From Gemmatimonas sp. (GTDB lineage Bacteria; Gemmatimonadota; Gemmatimonadetes; Longimicrobiales; Longimicrobiaceae), in the NCBI GenBank assembly GCA_009380025.1, contig WHSP01000024.1:330-39202 (forward strand): DNA of 38,873 bases, read 5' to 3'. The notes beneath the pieces are model-generated. The model was not told the DNA's origin, did no database searches, and saw only the letters and a list, made by a program, of their open reading frames with translations. Of the stretch, positions 28,261 to 36,787 are shown piece after piece. The first letter of the stretch is position 1. Each line of letters starts with the position of its first letter. Position numbers and translations under genes: made by a program.

Positions 28261-29661
28261 TTACTCCTCTCGCAGAGCCTCCATCGGCTGGATGCGTAGC
28301 CCCCGCCGCGCCGGTCCGGCCGCCGCGAGCAATCCTACCGTCAGCATTAGCACAGCCACCCCGACTAGAAGGACCGCCGCCTGCCGGCCCGTTAGGCCGA
28401 CCTTGAATAGGAGCGCGGCACCGAGCAGGGAGCCGACGAGTCCTCCGAGACTGAGTTGCCAAGCGGCGCGAGAGAAGATGCTTGCCAAGAGACGGAAGGG
28501 ATGGGCTCCGAGTGCGGTGCGGATGCCGATTTCCCTGCGGCGCCGGGTGACGGCGAGTGACATGAGGGCATGGATGCCCGCAGCGGAGAGGAGCAGGACG
28601 GTGCTGAGGGCGAGCACGAGGACGGTGGCGATTGTGGCGAGGAGGCGGGGGTTTCGAAGGGTGGCAAGGTTGGTCACCGAGACTAGCCGGAGGTTCGGAT
28701 CCAGCGTTGCCGTGATCTGACGAAGTCGCGGAGCGAAGTCGTCCGCCTCGCCCGCGCGTACGCGGACCAGCAGCTCGGCTATCGGGACCTGGCCCGGCCT
28801 AACGGCAGAATACACGACGGGCGGTGCCCACTCCCGGTCGAAGTAGCTCGCCTGAAGATCCTCGACTACGCCCACGATTTCGTGCCAGGGTCCCGGGTCG
28901 CCCTGTTCGGCGTCCGCACCAGCTTCGGACTCGGGCAGGACGCGGACGCGCCGGCCAATGGCGTTGTCGCCGTCTAGCACCGTGCGCACGAACGCTTCGT
29001 TCACGATGAAGCCACCGCCAGGCTCGTCGGCATCCGATGCGCCGAATGGGCGCCCTGCGAGGATGCGTGCACCAAAGACCTCGAAGTAGTCGGAGGCAAT
29101 GCTCATCGAGACTGCCGATCGCCGATCCAGCAGTCCCTCTATTCCTTCGACCTCGATGGGTAGATCTAGGTCGGAGCGTTGACCGAAGGTCACTCCGGCA
29201 ACTGCTGGCTCTGCCTCGAGCCGTTGCTCGAGCTCAGGGACCCGGACCGCCAAGCGGGCGGTGGTCTCGCGGCGATGGTCGGCGCCGTCCATTCCTGGCT
29301 GGATCGGGACCGCGACCCCCACCGTCGCGGTCAAGAACTCGTCCGCAGGGAACGTGGCACGGACCGCGGCCCTGCGAACATTGTCGAGCCCTAGATACAC
29401 GGCAGTGGGGAGGACGGTAACCGCGACGGCTACTTGCGTCACGATCAGGATGGTCCACACTCGACCAAGCCGCATACTCGCGCCGCTCCCGAGCCGTCGG
29501 AGGTCGGCATTGAGTCTACGCCCGGTCGACTTCAGCCCTGGCACGACGCCGACGATGACGGCGGACAGGATCGCGAGCCCCATCGCGAATGCGATCGACC
29601 GTGGCTGGAGTCCGTAGTTCTCCATAGAGTTCGCTTCAGAGTTCAAGGTCGGAAGGGGCAT
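28261..29661 (-). CDS. MacB/FtsX-type ABC permease lacking its N-terminal half (ADOP family)
   Basis: About 466 residues corresponding to the second half of an acidobacterial-type duplicated orphan permease. After a short unique N-terminus comes a membrane helix (FAMGLAILSAVIVGVVPGL). The linker LKSTGRRLNADLRRLG leads to a second helix (LGRVWTILIVTQVAVAVTVL). A periplasmic MacB-like domain follows (FPADEFLTATVGV... to ...VVYSAVRPGQ). Three C-terminal helices and the terminal IQPMEALREE complete the FtsX core (RRREIGIRTALGAHPFRLL). Whole ADOP proteins have about 800-900 residues with an additional periplasmic domain and helix in front, which are absent here. No ATPase gene is near. Either it is a 5'-truncated relic or a shortened form. 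Starts at 29661 and 29625 are possible. Confidence 0.72.
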   Translation of the reverse strand: MPLPTLNSEANSMENYGLQPRSIAFAMGLAILSAVIVGVVPGLKSTGRRLNADLRRLGSGASMRLGRVWTILIVTQVAVAVTVLPTAVYLGLDNVRRAAVRATFPADEFLTATVGVAVPIQPGMDGADHRRETTARLAVRVPELEQRLEAEPAVAGVTFGQRSDLDLPIEVEGIEGLLDRRSAVSMSIASDYFEVFGARILAGRPFGASDADEPGGGFIVNEAFVRTVLDGDNAIGRRVRVLPESEAGADAEQGDPGPWHEIVGVVEDLQASYFDREWAPPVVYSAVRPGQVPIAELLVRVRAGEADDFAPRLRQITATLDPNLRLVSVTNLATLRNPRLLATIATVLVLALSTVLLLSAAGIHALMSLAVTRRRREIGIRTALGAHPFRLLASIFSRAAWQLSLGGLVGSLLGAALLFKVGLTGRQAAVLLVGVAVLMLTVGLLAAAGPARRGLRIQPMEALREE

Positions 29662-29670
29662 CGTCCCGAA

Positions 29671-29699
29671 AGTATCACGAGTGAACGGCGCAGCGTCAA
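29671..29699 (-). promoter_or_regulatory. Promoter in front of the truncated permease
   Basis: On the minus strand, TTGACG (29694-29699), a 17-nt spacer and GATACT (29671-29676). This is the best-matching promoter in the window apart from the one at 32826. Transcription would begin near 29664, only a few bases before the ATG at 29661, so the message would be nearly leaderless or start at the ATG at 29625. Confidence 0.55.
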
Positions 29700-29720
29700 C
29701 GGTGTTATGAGCACTGTGTG

Positions 29721-29728
29721 TTGTATAC
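29721..29728. promoter_or_regulatory. TTGTATAC site, inverse of the TATACAA heptamer
   Basis: TTGTATA is the reverse complement of the heptamer repeated at the aminotransferase/PQQ divergent promoters. It lies 108 nt before the lipoprotein ATG and 60 nt behind the permease start. If the heptamer is an operator, this would be a fourth site. Confidence 0.35.
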
Positions 29729-29835
29729 GTCCACAGTATGCCGTGCCGGGTCCCGCGCGTCCAGTCCTCCGCCTTGGAGGATGCCACGGAACGCGGCAGC
29801 GAAACCGACTGTGACTGAACGGAGGGAGTTGCCGA

Positions 29836-30418: not shown

Positions 30419-31132
30419 ATGGCGAATCACCCGTTGGACGAAGAGGGGCCGAAGTGGCCGCAGATTCAAGCGACGACGCTGTCGGACCACGTGTACCAGA
30501 TCATCCGGAACCGGATTCTCCACCGGGATCTGCGGCCGGGAACGTTCATCCGGGAGCAGGAGGTGAGCGACGCGACAGGGGTGAGCCGAACGCCAGTCCG
30601 TGAAGCGCTGAATCGACTGGCGACGCAGGAGTTTCTCGAACGGGTTCCACACCGGGGCTTCCGGGTCCCGAACAACCCGTGGGAGACCCTGCTGGACGTC
30701 TATCCGATCGTCACCGCGCTCGAGGTGCTGGCGGGTTCGCTGGCCCTGGAGCACCTGGAGGAAGCGGACGTCGATCGGCTACGCGACCTCAACCAGCAGA
30801 TGCGTGAGGCTGCCGAAAGTGGCGACGAGAAGCTGCTGGCCGAGCTCAACAACGCCTTCCATCACGTCCTATCGGAGCGCAGCAGCAACCAGAGGCTGTG
30901 CGAGCTCCTCGACCAGCTTCGCGCTCAGGTCTTCCTGTTGGACATCTGGTACTACTCGGTACCGGAGCACATCGACGAGTCGATCGACGATCACACCAAG
31001 CTCATTACAGCGATCGAGATGGGCGACCGCGAGGAAGTCCTGGCCGCTCTCCGGACGAACTATGCGAGGGGTCAGCGAGCACTCGAGAAAGAGATGAACG
31101 CCCCGGTTGAGACGGGCGGTGAACGCCGATGA
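30419..31132 (+). CDS. GntR family regulator, FCD (FadR-like) subfamily
   Basis: A 237-residue transcription factor. An N-terminal winged helix (about residues 20-85) shows TLSDHVYQIIRNRILHRDLR, then IREQEVSDATGVSRTPVREA (recognition helix) and PHRGFRVP (wing). The C-terminal FCD effector domain is all helical and contains the metal-binding pattern expected for this group, with Asp in LDVYPIVTALEVLAG, His in NAFHHVLSERS and His in IDDHTKLITAIEMGD. FCD regulators usually respond to small carboxylic acids or sugar acids. The gene is convergent to the aminotransferase and near the PQQ genes, whose promoters carry TATACAA heptamers. Control of these is a testable inference. Confidence 0.9.
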   Translation: MANHPLDEEGPKWPQIQATTLSDHVYQIIRNRILHRDLRPGTFIREQEVSDATGVSRTPVREALNRLATQEFLERVPHRGFRVPNNPWETLLDVYPIVTALEVLAGSLALEHLEEADVDRLRDLNQQMREAAESGDEKLLAELNNAFHHVLSERSSNQRLCELLDQLRAQVFLLDIWYYSVPEHIDESIDDHTKLITAIEMGDREEVLAALRTNYARGQRALEKEMNAPVETGGERR

Positions 31133-31305: not shown

Positions 31306-32631
31306 TCAGGCAGCCGCAGAGGCGATCTTGCATGCGCGGCCGAGGCGCTCGATCGCCTCCTCGACTTCGGTTTCGGTGATCAGCATCGAGGGGGCGAGCC
31401 GGACGACGTTCCCGTGTAGCCCCGCGACGCCAACGAGAACGCCGGCCTCCTTCGTGGCCTCCAGGTACGCCTGAGCGCGTGCCGGCGCCGGTTCCTTCGT
31501 GACCGAATCCTCGACCAGCTCTAGCGCCAGCATCAAGCCCATCCCCCGGACCTCGCCGATCCACTCGTACTGTTCCTGCAGCGCGTTCAGACCCCTTCTC
31601 AACTGAACACCACGCTCGGCGCAACGCACGTCGACATTCTCCCGCACCATAACCTCGAGCGTCGCCTCCGCCGCGGCCATCGCGATCGGGTTTCCCCCGA
31701 AGGTCGAAATCGACTTCGCCGTCCACGCCTCCGCAATCTCCTCCCGGGCCATCGTCGCCCCGACCGGGAACCCGTTCGCGATCCCCTTGGCCATGTACAT
31801 GATGTCCGGCTCGACTTCCCAGTGGTCGATTCCCCACCAGCGACCCGTTCGCCCGAACCCGGTTTGCACTTCATCGCTGATGAACAAGCCGCCGTACTTC
31901 CGCACGATCTCCGCGGCCCTGCGATAGTAGCCGCGAGGCGGCACGATGTACCCGCCGACCCCCAGGATCGGCTCCGCCAGGAAGGCCGCGGGCCGTCCGT
32001 TCGTACACGTGACGATCACCTCCTCCACGTCCCGCGCGAAGATCTCGCCCGCCTCCTCCTCGTCCATGCCCGCCAACTCGCTCCGATACAGGTAGGGCGC
32101 CCGCGCGTGATGGAGCCCGGCAATGGAGCTCGCCAGTGGACGCCAGCTCGCGTGCGCTGTCAGGTTCGTCGCGAGATACGTCCGCCCATGGTAGCAGTGA
32201 CGCAGAGCGACGATCTCACTCCGACCGGTATACAGACACGCGGCCATCACCGCCGTCTCCATGGCCTCGGATCCACTGTTCGTGAAGTACGACCTCGTCA
32301 GCCCAGTCGGTGCCAACTCGGCCAGCCGCTCGGCGACCCTCACCTGTCCCTCCGTCACGTACAGCGTCGACGTGTGTCCGAGTTCATTGAGCTGGTCCTG
32401 AACCCGTGCGTTCACCTCCGGATGACAGTGCCCGAGCGCCAGGGTCAGGATGCCGCTGAAACAATCGAGGTACTCCTGACCTTCCGCGTCCCGAACCCAG
32501 ACGCCGCTCCCCTCCTCGAGCACCAACGGCTCGCCGTAGTACGGAGAAACACTCGGAAATAGAAACTTCTTGTGCCGGGCACGCACTTCGCCCGAACGCA
32601 CGGCGGACGGATCGATATCGACCAGGCTCAT
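31306..32631 (-). CDS. Class-III PLP-dependent aminotransferase (AGXT2/GABA-transaminase-like)
   Basis: A 441-residue aminotransferase. The PLP lysine is Lys282 in MYMAKGIANGFP, the pyridine-nitrogen aspartate is in ISDEVQTGFGRTG, and the phosphate-binding segment is TNSGSEAMETAVMAA. The YHGRTYLATN and EPILGVGGYIVPPRGYY segments place it with alanine-glyoxylate aminotransferase 2, 4-aminobutyrate and putrescine aminotransferases; the substrate cannot be fixed by eye. The ATG at 32631 follows GGAGG with 6-nt spacing, which favours it over the TTG at 32634. The promoter with -10 TATACT (32718-32723) overlaps a TATACAA heptamer. It is divergent to the PQQ dehydrogenases and convergent to the GntR gene, suggesting a shared amine or amino-acid catabolic pathway. 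Confidence 0.9.
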   Translation of the reverse strand: MSLVDIDPSAVRSGEVRARHKKFLFPSVSPYYGEPLVLEEGSGVWVRDAEGQEYLDCFSGILTLALGHCHPEVNARVQDQLNELGHTSTLYVTEGQVRVAERLAELAPTGLTRSYFTNSGSEAMETAVMAACLYTGRSEIVALRHCYHGRTYLATNLTAHASWRPLASSIAGLHHARAPYLYRSELAGMDEEEAGEIFARDVEEVIVTCTNGRPAAFLAEPILGVGGYIVPPRGYYRRAAEIVRKYGGLFISDEVQTGFGRTGRWWGIDHWEVEPDIMYMAKGIANGFPVGATMAREEIAEAWTAKSISTFGGNPIAMAAAEATLEVMVRENVDVRCAERGVQLRRGLNALQEQYEWIGEVRGMGLMLALELVEDSVTKEPAPARAQAYLEATKEAGVLVGVAGLHGNVVRLAPSMLITETEVEEAIERLGRACKIASAAA

Positions 32632-32717
32632 CAATGGCCTCCAGAGGGTAGGGGTCGCGAACAGCCCATGTACGGGCGGGAGGAGGGAAGGGGGCCGCCC
32701 GGACCGTTATCGTATGA

Positions 32718-32727
32718 AGTATACAAA
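32718..32727 (-). promoter_or_regulatory. -10 element and TATACAA site of the aminotransferase promoter
   Basis: TATACT on the minus strand (32718-32723) is a strong -10 element, with transcription expected near 32711, about 80 nt before the ATG. No good -35 is present at 16-18 nt, as expected for an activator-dependent or tightly regulated promoter. The heptamer TATACAA on the plus strand (32720-32726) overlaps it. Confidence 0.5.
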
Positions 32728-32825
32728 CCTACCCGCCCCCGTCGGGACCGTCAATGCCGGACTCGAACCGGGAGCCCGACGCTGCGAACGACCCTGAGTC
32801 TCGGCACGGCAGCCATCGAGGAGTC

Positions 32826-32863
32826 TTGACGGGCGCGCCCAGCTGCACATATACAATATACAA
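32826..32863 (+). promoter_or_regulatory. Promoter and tandem TATACAA operator of the PQQ dehydrogenase genes
   Basis: TTGACG (32826-32831), an 18-nt spacer and TATACA (32850-32855) form a strong sigma-70-like promoter. The heptamer TATACAA occurs twice without gap (32850-32856 and 32857-32863), covering the -10 and the start point. A repressor bound there would block RNA polymerase. The leader to the GTG is about 100 nt. The rest of the 329-nt divergent gap holds nothing else I can support. Confidence 0.6.
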
Positions 32864-32963
32864 TGCCGTAGGCTGCCGGGGCGCGGATTGGCGCCTCCAG
32901 GGTCGCTTTTGCCAGCCGGCATGGGCGTAGAGCACGGAGGTTCCTGGCAAAGAGGAGGGAAAC

Positions 32964-34816
32964 GTGGGGCCCAACGTACGAATCGGCGCATCCGGTGCAT
33001 GGATACTGCTCGGCCTGAGCATGGTCCCGCAAGCGGCCGCGCAGCAGGAGGGCGGCGGAGGATGGAGCTACTTCGGGGGCGACCGTTCGTTCACCCGGTA
33101 TGCGCCGGTCGGGCAGATCGACGCGGGGAATGTGGCGGACGTCCGGGTGCTCTGGCGGCGTCCGGGGGTGGACGCGGAGTTCCTGGCGGAATATCCAGAG
33201 ACGGAGCTCGGGGAGAACTTCCGATCGACGCCGATCTACGTAGACGGCTTGTTGTACGCTTTCGGGTCGAGCACGCGCGGAGTCGAGTACTGGAGTGGCG
33301 GCTCGCGGGGTCGGATATTCGCCGTTCGCAGCGAGTACCTGTATGCGCTGGATGCGGAGACGGGCGTGGAGATCGCGAACTTCGGAGACTCAGGGCGGGT
33401 GAATCTGTCTCCAGAGGGTGGGCGGTTCAACTGGTCGTCGGGGCCGCTGGTGGTGGGGGAGGTGATTGTCATCGCGGGAAACGTGGACGGGGCAGGGGAT
33501 GGAGGGATGACCTGGCGCGGCAGCGTTTCGGAGGACGTGCGGGGTTTCGACGTCGAGACAGGCGAACTCCTGTGGACGTTCCATGTGGTTCCCCGCGAAG
33601 GCGAGTTCGGGATTCACACCTGGGAGAACGAGGCGTGGCGGGAATCGGGGGATCTGGGCTCATGGTGTTGTCTGAGCGCCGATCCGGAGCTGGGATACGT
33701 CTACGTTCCGTTGACCGCACCGACGGCCGCTTACTTCGGGGGCCATCGACCCGGCGACAACCTCTTCTCGAACACGCTGGTCGCCCTGGACGCGCAGACG
33801 GGAGAGCGGGTCTGGCACTTCCAGATGGTTCATCACGATCTCTGGGAGTACGACGTCGTGGGCCCTGCGACTCTGGGGGACATCGTCGTTGATGGCCGTA
33901 CAGTCGCAGCCGTCATGCAGCCGGCGAAGACGGGGTGGGTGTACGTGTTCGACCGTGCGACAGGTGAGCCGGTCTGGCCGATCGTCGAGAGGCCGGTGCC
34001 CCCCTCGACCGTTCCGGGCGAGCAGGCCTCGCCGACCCAGCCGTTCCCGACGCGACCCGCCCCCTTCGCGCGCCAGCGCGTCACGGTGGAGGATCTGATC
34101 GATTACACGCCCGAGCTGGAGCGTCGCTCGCTCGCCATCGCCGACTCGTTCGTGCTGGGCAACCTGTTCACGCCCCCGTCCATCGTGAGTCCGGACGACG
34201 AGGAGGGGAAGAAGGGCACCTACTCGCTTCCGGGGTCGTGGGGTGCGGGGAACTGGAACACGGGCGCGTTCGATCCGGAGACCGGAATGTACTACGCCGT
34301 CTCGCACACGTACCCGCGAGTGTACCGGATCGAGACGGCCGAAGCCCCCGAAGCCGAGATGGAGTACTGGAGCCCGAACCGCGAGGCTCCAGGCATCGAG
34401 GGCCTGCCGATCGTGAAGCCTCCCTGGGGGCAGATCACCGCGATCGACATGAACACGGGCAACACGTCTGGACCGCTGCGAACGGCCCCGGTCCGCAGGA
34501 TCACCCACTCCTGCGCGACCTCGACCTCCCCGACCTCGGCGTGCCGAGCCGCGCCGCACCGCTCCTCACGCAGACGCTGCTCTTCCTCAGCGAGGGGAAC
34601 GACGCCACGGGGAGCCCGGCGATGGCGAAGCCCCCGACAGGTCGGCAGTTCCGGGCGTACGACAAGGCAACCGGTAAAGTCGTGTGGTCGATCGACCTGG
34701 AGGCGGGGACCACCGGCGCCCCCGTGTCGTTCATGCACGAAGGCAAACAGTACATCGTGGTTGCGATCGGCGACGGGGACCATCCCCCGGAGTGGGTCGC
34801 GCTGGGTCTGCCCTGA
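32964..34816 (+). pseudogene. PQQ-dependent dehydrogenase, first tandem copy, single-base frameshift
   Basis: A periplasmic quinoprotein dehydrogenase of about 617 residues once corrected. GTG start after AGGAGG; signal peptide ending near AAAQQ. Propeller repeats include W-x-x-x-G-G-D (WSYFGGD), LYALDAETGVEI, VRGFDVETGELLWTF and LVALDAQTGERVWHFQMVHH, then DLWEYDVVGPATL. These are the family's tryptophan docking motifs. The vicinal Cys pair in GSWCCLSAD is notable. No CxxCH haem motif is present. At 34460/34461 the frame breaks. The sequence GGC-AACACGTCTGG would read GEHVW with one extra G, exactly as the second copy's GEHLW, and the rest (DLDLPDLGV to GDGDHPPEWVALGLP) continues in the other frame to 34816. 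Substrate (alcohol, sugar or amine) is unknown. Confidence 0.85.
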
Positions 34817-34853: not shown

Positions 34854-36787
34854 ATGCTTCTTCCGCGAGTTGCAGGCTACTTCACCGTGCTCGGAGTCAC
34901 GGGCATCCTGGCGTCATCGCTCAATGCCCAGGACAGCCAGTGGAGCTATTTCGGGGGTGACGAGGCGTTCACCCGCTACTCGGCCGCCGACCAGATCGAC
35001 GCCGACAATGTCGATCGACTCGAGGTCGCATGGCGGCGCTCGGCCGTTGACCCGGAGCTTGCCGCCGGCTTCCCGGACCGTCAGTTCTCGGCCTACCTCC
35101 TCTCCACGCCGATCCTGTACGACGGCGCACTCTTCACCCAGGACGCGCTCGGGCTCGTCCAGTCGGTTCATCCCGGTACCGGTGAAACGATTTGGAGCAG
35201 TCTCCCTGGGACCGCTCGGAGGAGGAGGTCTTCGGCCGGAGCGCCCGCGGGGTCGATTTCTGGAGTGACGGTTCGAGCACCCGGATTCTCTCCGCTCGTG
35301 GCGAGTACCTCTACGCGTTGGACGCCGCCACCGGTGCGCCCATCGAGGGGTTCGGAGACGGTGGCCGGGTCTTCCTTCGGGGCGACGATCCGGATGCGCG
35401 TCCCTTCGCCGCCGCCGCCGGTCTCATCGTCGTCGACGATGTCGTGGTGATCGGCGGAATCTGGGGCGGGGCAGGGGATCGCTCACCGGTTCGGGAGAGG
35501 GATCCGGGCAACCTGCGCGGCTTCGATGTCCAGACGGGCGACCTCGTTTGGACCTTTCACGTGACGCCACGCCCCGGAGAGGTCGGCATCGAGACCTGGG
35601 AATCGGACGCCTGGGAGTACGCAGGCGACATGGGGTCGTGGTGTTGCCTCAGCGCAGACCTCGAGCTCGGGCATGTGTACGCCCCGCTCTCCGCACCAAC
35701 CGGGTTCTTCGGCGGCCACCGGCCGGGAGACAACCTCTTCTCCAATAGCGTCGTCGCGCTCGATGCCGAGACTGGCGACCGCGTCTGGCACTACCAGATG
35801 ATTCACCACGGCATTTGGGAGTACGAGAACATGGGGCCGCCGATTCTCGGCGATATCACCGTGGACGGGGAGCGCATCGCGGCGCTCATGCAGCCGAACA
35901 AGAACGCGTTCCTCTTCGTTCTCGATCGTCGCACGGGAGACCCGGTCTGGCCGATCGTCGAGCGGCCGGTTCCGCCGTCGACGGTTCCTGGCGAACTGGT
36001 GTCGCCCACCCAGCCGTTTCCCACTCGACCAGCGCCCTTCGACCGCCAGGGGATGAGCGAGGATGACCTCATCGACTTCACCCCCGAGATGCACTCCGAA
36101 GCACTCGCGTTCTTCGAGCAGCACGTGACCGGGCCGCTCTACACTCCGCCCTCGATCGTGAGCAGCGAGCCGGGCGGGACGAAAGGGACCCTCAGCGCAC
36201 CCGGCTCATGGGGCTCGGCGAACTGGAATACCGGTGCCTTCGACCCGGAGACGGGGATCTACTACGCCGTCTCGCACACCCTTCCCGGGGTCGATGGAAT
36301 CGTTCCCGCGACGGATCCGGAGGCCACCTTCGAATACGTCCGCGAAGGGTCCTCGCCGATCTGGCTTCCGAGCGGGCTGCCGGTGACGAAGCCTCCCTAC
36401 GGCCGGATCACCGCGATCGACGTGAACACCGGCGAGCATCTCTGGATGGTGCCTAACGGCGACGGCATGAACGATCTTCCCCTCCTCGCCGAGCTCGATC
36501 TTCCTCCCCTCGGAACCGCTGGGCGGCCGACCGCGCTCGTCACGGCGACGCTCCTCTTCCTCGGCGAAGGAAGCGATGCGATCTCGGGTACGTCGGGCGT
36601 CGGGATGTGGGGGACGACCTTCCGGGCGTACGACAAGGCGACCGGCGAGGTCGTGTGGGAGACCGAGCTCGACTCCGGCACGACGACTGGACCGATGACC
36701 TACATGTACGAGGGGAAGCAGTACGTCGTGGTCGCGATCGGTGGGTCGGAGCATCCACCCGAGTGGGTGGCGCTTGCGCTGCCTTAG
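34854..36787 (+). pseudogene. PQQ-dependent dehydrogenase, second tandem copy, single-base frameshift
   Basis: A paralogue of the preceding gene, 37 nt downstream, about 644 residues once corrected. ATG after GAGAGGAA; signal peptide ending near LNAQD. WSYFGGDEAFTRYSAADQID matches the first copy. The break lies at 35194-35197: TTTGG-AGCAG would read IWEQSPWDRS with one more G. From there the other frame runs intact to 36787, with LYALDAATGAPIEGFGDGGR, GSWCCLSADLELG, FFGGHRPGDNLFSNSVVALD and HHGIWEYENMGPP. It keeps the Cys-Cys pair and lacks haem c. The two copies align well across their whole length, so this is an old tandem duplication. It probably feeds electrons from a periplasmic oxidation into the respiratory chain. 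Confidence 0.85.

Follow-up and report, generated by a model that had tools for sequence, protein, structure and literature searches.

Organisation of the locus

The window, by which we mean the whole stretch of 38,873 nucleotides analysed here, carries a gene for a GntR-type regulator that is convergent with a class III aminotransferase gene, as the preliminary description of this DNA had claimed. A 330-bp intergenic region separates the aminotransferase gene from two genes for PQQ-type quinoprotein dehydrogenases that are transcribed divergently from it (Table 1). Both the GntR winged helix-turn-helix domain (PF00392) and the C-terminal FCD domain (PF07729) of the regulator are above cut-off, as expected of the FadR/FCD subfamily. 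None of the named NCBIfam GntR regulators (PhnR, LldR, PdhR, NanR and others) scored above its curated cut-off, the best being PhnR with 86.5 vs 271.5. Elsewhere in the window an ORF for an ADOP-type FtsX permease (28261-29787, minus strand) matches only the C-terminal positions 352-803 of the 803-position family model and looks 5'-truncated.

Table 1. Genes and putative regulatory sites of the locus, with positions in the window
Feature	Position	Strand	Evidence or remark
Fourth TATACAA copy, TTGTATACGT on the + strand	29721..29727	-	doubtful site
FCD-type GntR regulator, 237 aa, proposed repressor	30419..31132	+	Pfam GntR 4.1e-18, FCD 3.8e-24
Class III aminotransferase, proposed target	31306..32634	-	Pfam Aminotran_3 1.6e-101
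Predicted operator site 1, ATCGTATGAAGTATACAAA	32709..32727	+	contains TATACAA at 32720; relatives-only PWM 21.3
Predicted operator site 2, ATTGTATATTGTATATGTG on the - strand	32846..32864	-	tandem TATACAATATACAA; relatives-only PWM 17.5
First PQQ-type quinoprotein dehydrogenase, possible target of site 2	32964..34813	+	Pfam PQQ 2.9e-130; frameshift near 34460
Second PQQ-type dehydrogenase, possibly co-transcribed	34920..36787	+	Pfam PQQ 4.3e-138; frameshift near 35200

The heptamer TATACAA occurs in the window at 32720-32726, 32850-32856 and 32857-32863 on the plus strand and at 29721-29727 on the minus strand, with no fifth copy, which reproduces exactly the positions given in the preliminary description. 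Shuffled versions of the window lead one to expect 0.10 copies, and four or more were reached in none of 100 shuffles. The genome-wide count, which had been proposed as a check, is 45 copies in 5.02 Mb, so that the presence of three copies in one intergenic region of 330 bp is far above chance; the tandem TATACAATATACAA has a single occurrence in the genome. The minus-strand copy lies 109 bp ahead of a small lipoprotein-like gene that precedes gntR, scores 10.4 with a 17-bp PWM and ranks below fourth place in the window when scored with the relatives-only PWM; it is a weak match and may be incidental.

A 19-bp site with three boxes

On scanning the loci of relatives, TATACAA was found to be one part of a 19-bp site with the consensus ATTGTAGATTGTATACAAT, which contains three boxes, namely TTGTA, a second TTGTA 7 bp on and then an inverted TACAA. 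The earlier proposal that the heptamer is a GntR operator is supported by footprinting in relatives as far as the operator is concerned, whereas the unit turns out to be the 19-bp site and not the heptamer. At consensus positions 9-18 the TTGTA/TACAA boxes stand with the 2-nt GT-AC spacing of an AT-rich TKGT/ACMA operator of the FadR subfamily.

Two such sites are present in the intergenic region. Site 1 lies about 85 bp ahead of the start codon of the aminotransferase gene and is the best match to ATTGTAT-N5-ATACAAT in the whole genome, being the sole place with only 2 mismatches. Site 2 precedes the first PQQ dehydrogenase gene by about 100 bp. The PWM used for the window and its own genome was trained on the sites of other genomes only, and in 5 Mb of Markov sequence about one hit is expected at a score of at least 20 and about five at 17 or more. 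Among the relatives, near-perfect long palindromes are seen in G423, G317, G222 (ATTGTATCAAGTATACAAT), and locus L075 is also near-palindromic over 19 bp; direct repeats with a weak inverted third box are seen in G091 and G042. Site 1 is of the long near-palindromic kind and site 2 of the direct-repeat kind.

Gene neighbourhood in relatives

Close orthologs of the regulator are rare, being detected at E <= 1e-40 in 9 of 154 genomes of the order and in 14 of 395 genomes sampled from the phylum. Where found, their usual neighbour is an ortholog of the window aminotransferase, and the two are usually accompanied by mmsA and a sodium symporter gene. The aminotransferase orthologs are about 59-66% identical and stand directly behind mmsA in many relatives, where mmsA encodes a CoA-acylating methylmalonate-semialdehyde dehydrogenase (TIGR01722, 599.7 bits vs a cut-off of 448.5). 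The sodium:solute symporter gene follows mmsA and the aminotransferase gene in G003 and lies two genes further in G021. The local regulon envisaged in the preliminary description is supported for the aminotransferase, but its conserved partners are mmsA and the symporter rather than the quinoproteins.

An S58 peptidase is present in five loci, and this family of peptidases includes β-aminopeptidases. In one family (L070, L117, L119, L069 and L118) the GntR/mmsA/aminotransferase loci carry the S58 peptidase together with a TonB-dependent receptor-like gene, a combination suggesting that beta-peptides or similar compounds are taken up and cleaved. Linkage to prpC/prpB of the methylcitrate cycle, as in PrpR-type systems, was not seen; the scanned neighbours were the aminotransferase, MMSDH, symporter, S58 peptidase and TonB receptor. 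Given mmsA, the aminotransferase, the symporter and the S58 peptidase as neighbours, the pathway is likely that of β-amino-acid degradation, with β-alanine or 3-aminoisobutyrate as the presumed substrate.

Co-occurrence of the site with the regulator

The site is found upstream of mmsA in all nine GntR-linked mmsA loci, whereas 14 of the 15 mmsA-aminotransferase loci from genomes with no detected GntR ortholog score nothing above 8.7. In the exception, G059, the site is perfect and the contig stops 61 bp past the match to the aminotransferase, at the place that gntR occupies in the genus-mate G054. Several of the carriers are mutually related and the nulls are compositional, and it is with this proviso that co-occurrence of site and regulator (9/9 vs 0/14) gives a Fisher value of 1.2e-6, or 7.6e-6 with G059 counted as a non-carrier. 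With leave-one-out PWMs, the top match of the locus fell upstream of mmsA or of the GntR-mmsA divergon in 7 out of 7 mmsA-linked training loci. Three carriers (G185, G113 and G239) have sites elsewhere in the locus, and two (G031 and G232) have no recognisable site. A match to ATTGTAT-N5-ATACAAT with at most three mismatches is present at the GntR locus in 9 of 14 carrier genomes, for genome totals of only 0 to 21 each. No site is found directly upstream of the aminotransferase gene in relatives, as is understandable since the gene stands behind mmsA and the site lies upstream of mmsA.

Since the sites of relatives were first spotted by their likeness to TATACAA, the PWM is not fully independent, and more independent evidence comes from a de novo dyad test and from two loci outside the training set. 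A motif-free dyad search over whole loci was dominated by conserved coding patterns, with TTGTA-N7-TACAA only 18th, and was therefore rerun on promoter regions. In the promoter regions of 14 loci TGTAT-N2-TGTAT ranked first of 26,624 dyads (9 of 14 loci vs 0.12 expected), followed in second place by TTGTA-N7-TACAA (6 of 14 vs 0.06 expected). The two loci outside training come from MAGs titled Acidobacteriota and were found by the regulator alone; they score 25.0 and 25.7 just upstream of gntR, and in one of them the symporter gene is divergent from gntR-mmsA-aminotransferase.

In the genome studied here, the mmsA-symporter operon is unlinked to gntR and carries a full operator of its own (contig C93, L159:4087-4105; PWM 23.1), counts of the regulon in this genome being partial beyond the pattern searches. 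A small NTF2-like gene stands ahead of this operon, and the regulon is split in comparison with relatives. Another match, on C66 with a score of 18.2, falls within the coding sequence of nuo and was discounted.

The footprinting that had been suggested as a check thus gave a consistent outcome, in that the extended motif is kept at orthologous GntR/mmsA/aminotransferase loci and is absent where the regulator is absent. What was computed directly is the presence of the sites, how far they are conserved and how they co-occur with the regulator. Because the matching genes in many relatives carry the same 19-base site and relatives without the regulator lack it, the TATACAA words are read as probable halves of two operators. 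It is very probable on these sequence comparisons that sites 1 and 2 are operators of the adjacent FCD-GntR protein, which would bind them directly, repress (rather than activate) beta-amino-acid catabolism and be released by a metabolite.

Alternative readings of the sites

The copies had also been described as overlapping the -10 elements of both promoters. On the PQQ side this is plausible, as TTGACG (32826-32831) stands 18 nt before TATACA; on the aminotransferase side, however, the nearest TTGACG is about 25 nt from TATACT, and a strict sigma-70 promoter scan found none. We give hardly any credence to the idea that the copies are merely -10 elements, whose likeness would follow from the scarcity of AT-rich hexamers in a genome of high GC content: the TTGACG-TATACA pair ahead of the PQQ gene speaks for it, but the empty scan, the conservation over 19 bp with a fixed 7-bp phasing and the lack of such a site in the promoters of orthologous operons without the regulator all speak against it. 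Another regulator of the same subfamily could also be the main ligand of these operators, since the genome has six FCD-GntR genes. For the paralog on C72 (46% identical to the window GntR), a site with a score of 19.6 lies between the regulator gene and an aminotransferase gene belonging to that locus, and the closely related word TTGTATACAA is found in only three places in the genome, two flanking the C437 GntR and one on C47, a contig with a third GntR. Yet a paralog on C98 (63% identical) has no site at its locus, the window gntR is the copy linked to the aminotransferase, and relatives that have a single close ortholog carry the site together with it, which makes binding mainly by the C98 or C72 paralog quite unlikely. 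The exact TTGTATACAA palindromes lie at C437:21036 before its gntR, at C437:22036 before a SusC-type TonB receptor gene and at C47:11250, and FCD-GntR paralogs with TTGTATACAA-like sites nearby are seen on contigs C437, C47, C72 and C2 of this genome, G000 (loci L065, L064, L063 and L066).

The role of site 2 is a finer question within the preferred reading of the two sites as operators of the window GntR. The preliminary description had placed the PQQ genes in the regulon; site 2 does stand ahead of the first of them, but the link is seen only here and is absent in relatives, whose PQQ homologs lack a site in the 3-4.6 kb scanned. Each of the two genes also contains one reading-frame change (34457-34463 and 35195-35207, by tblastn with the protein of a relative), due either to assembly error or to gene decay, and a good third box is missing from site 2. 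These features would fit a variant, compatible with the best explanation, in which only site 1 controls genes, site 2 is either vestigial or an auxiliary aminotransferase site, and the regulon does not include the PQQ genes. We consider it a tenable but less favoured possibility, as site 2 shares 15 of its first 16 bases with the mmsA-promoter site of another family (G054/G059), is located where the PQQ promoter is expected, and because, where a FadR-type divergon has two sites, each of them mostly serves a single operon (PMC4494728). That the regulator also controls the PQQ genes, for which site 2 is the evidence, is put forward as a somewhat probable extension.

Comparison with known GntR systems

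Operators of the FadR subfamily are AT-rich TKGT/ACMA palindromes with a spacing of 2 or 3 nt, and they frequently have an additional, weaker box at 7-12 nt from the centre (PMC4494728). The sites described here resemble them in their AT-richness, in the TTGT/ACAA boxes, in their location in divergons or upstream of catabolic genes and in the additional half-site, and in the GTATAC core the spacing is 2 nt, as listed for GntR, HpxS, HypR, MdcY, PrpR and UxuR (PMC4494728). They differ in that the best-conserved element is the 7-bp-phased TTGTA-N2-TTGTA together with an inverted third box, while the short palindrome is often imperfect. The site thus fits the description of the subfamily, although its extra box is a direct one and unusually strong.

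For P. aeruginosa PrpR (PA0797), a GntR-type repressor with the operator ATTGTCGACAAT, release by a metabolite has been proposed (PMC9765439). Like the present regulator it is an FCD-GntR protein; it acts on a catabolic operon of propionyl-CoA metabolism through a TTGTC/GACAA box, and TTGTCGACAA is found inside the sites of G113 and G239. In contrast to the role proposed here, PrpR controls the methylcitrate cycle and not mmsA and the aminotransferase, and its operator is a simple palindrome of 12 bp (PMC9765439). Tandem short boxes are also known from the GntR-family proteins NanR (TGGTATAW repeats), FarR and NagQ (listed in PMC4494728), although word and pathway differ and the repeats here are joined to an inverted box. 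The nearest solved sequences, E. coli McbR (4p9f, E 6e-19) and PDB 7xp0 (E 1.6e-24), are distant and were compared by full-length protein sequence only. A literature search found no paper that pairs TTGTATACAA or ATTGTATACAAT with GntR, and no GntR repressor of beta-alanine or malonate-semialdehyde metabolism.

Proposed regulon and its significance

The ancestral regulon would have comprised the class III aminotransferase, the CoA-acylating (methyl)malonate-semialdehyde dehydrogenase (mmsA) and the sodium:solute symporter. In this genome the operon appears to have been split, the aminotransferase gene remaining beside gntR under site 1 and mmsA with the symporter gene coming to lie elsewhere under a site of its own, while the quinoprotein genes divergent from the aminotransferase presumably ended up beside site 2, where co-regulation is probable. 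On the simplest reading, which is repression, dimers of the regulator would occupy the array of boxes beside the promoter, and binding of a pathway metabolite to the FCD domain, a ligand we suppose by analogy with the proposal for PrpR, would cause the dimers to leave the DNA.

As such, the system would be an ordinary repressor whose site has a slightly unusual layout. Somewhat more tentatively, it may represent an undescribed FCD-GntR regulon for the degradation of β-amino acids that occurs in more than one environmental lineage, has a three-box operator led by a 7-bp-phased direct repeat rather than a palindrome, and has captured a quinoprotein dehydrogenase pair in this lineage. Starting from a heptamer noticed by eye in the bare sequence, cross-genome footprinting led to a proposed regulon, and a FadR-type site may be readable as a direct repeat joined to an inverted box. 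For a regulator so far uncharacterised, from bacteria that have received little study, the analysis provides a testable operator, a regulon and a likely class of substrate.
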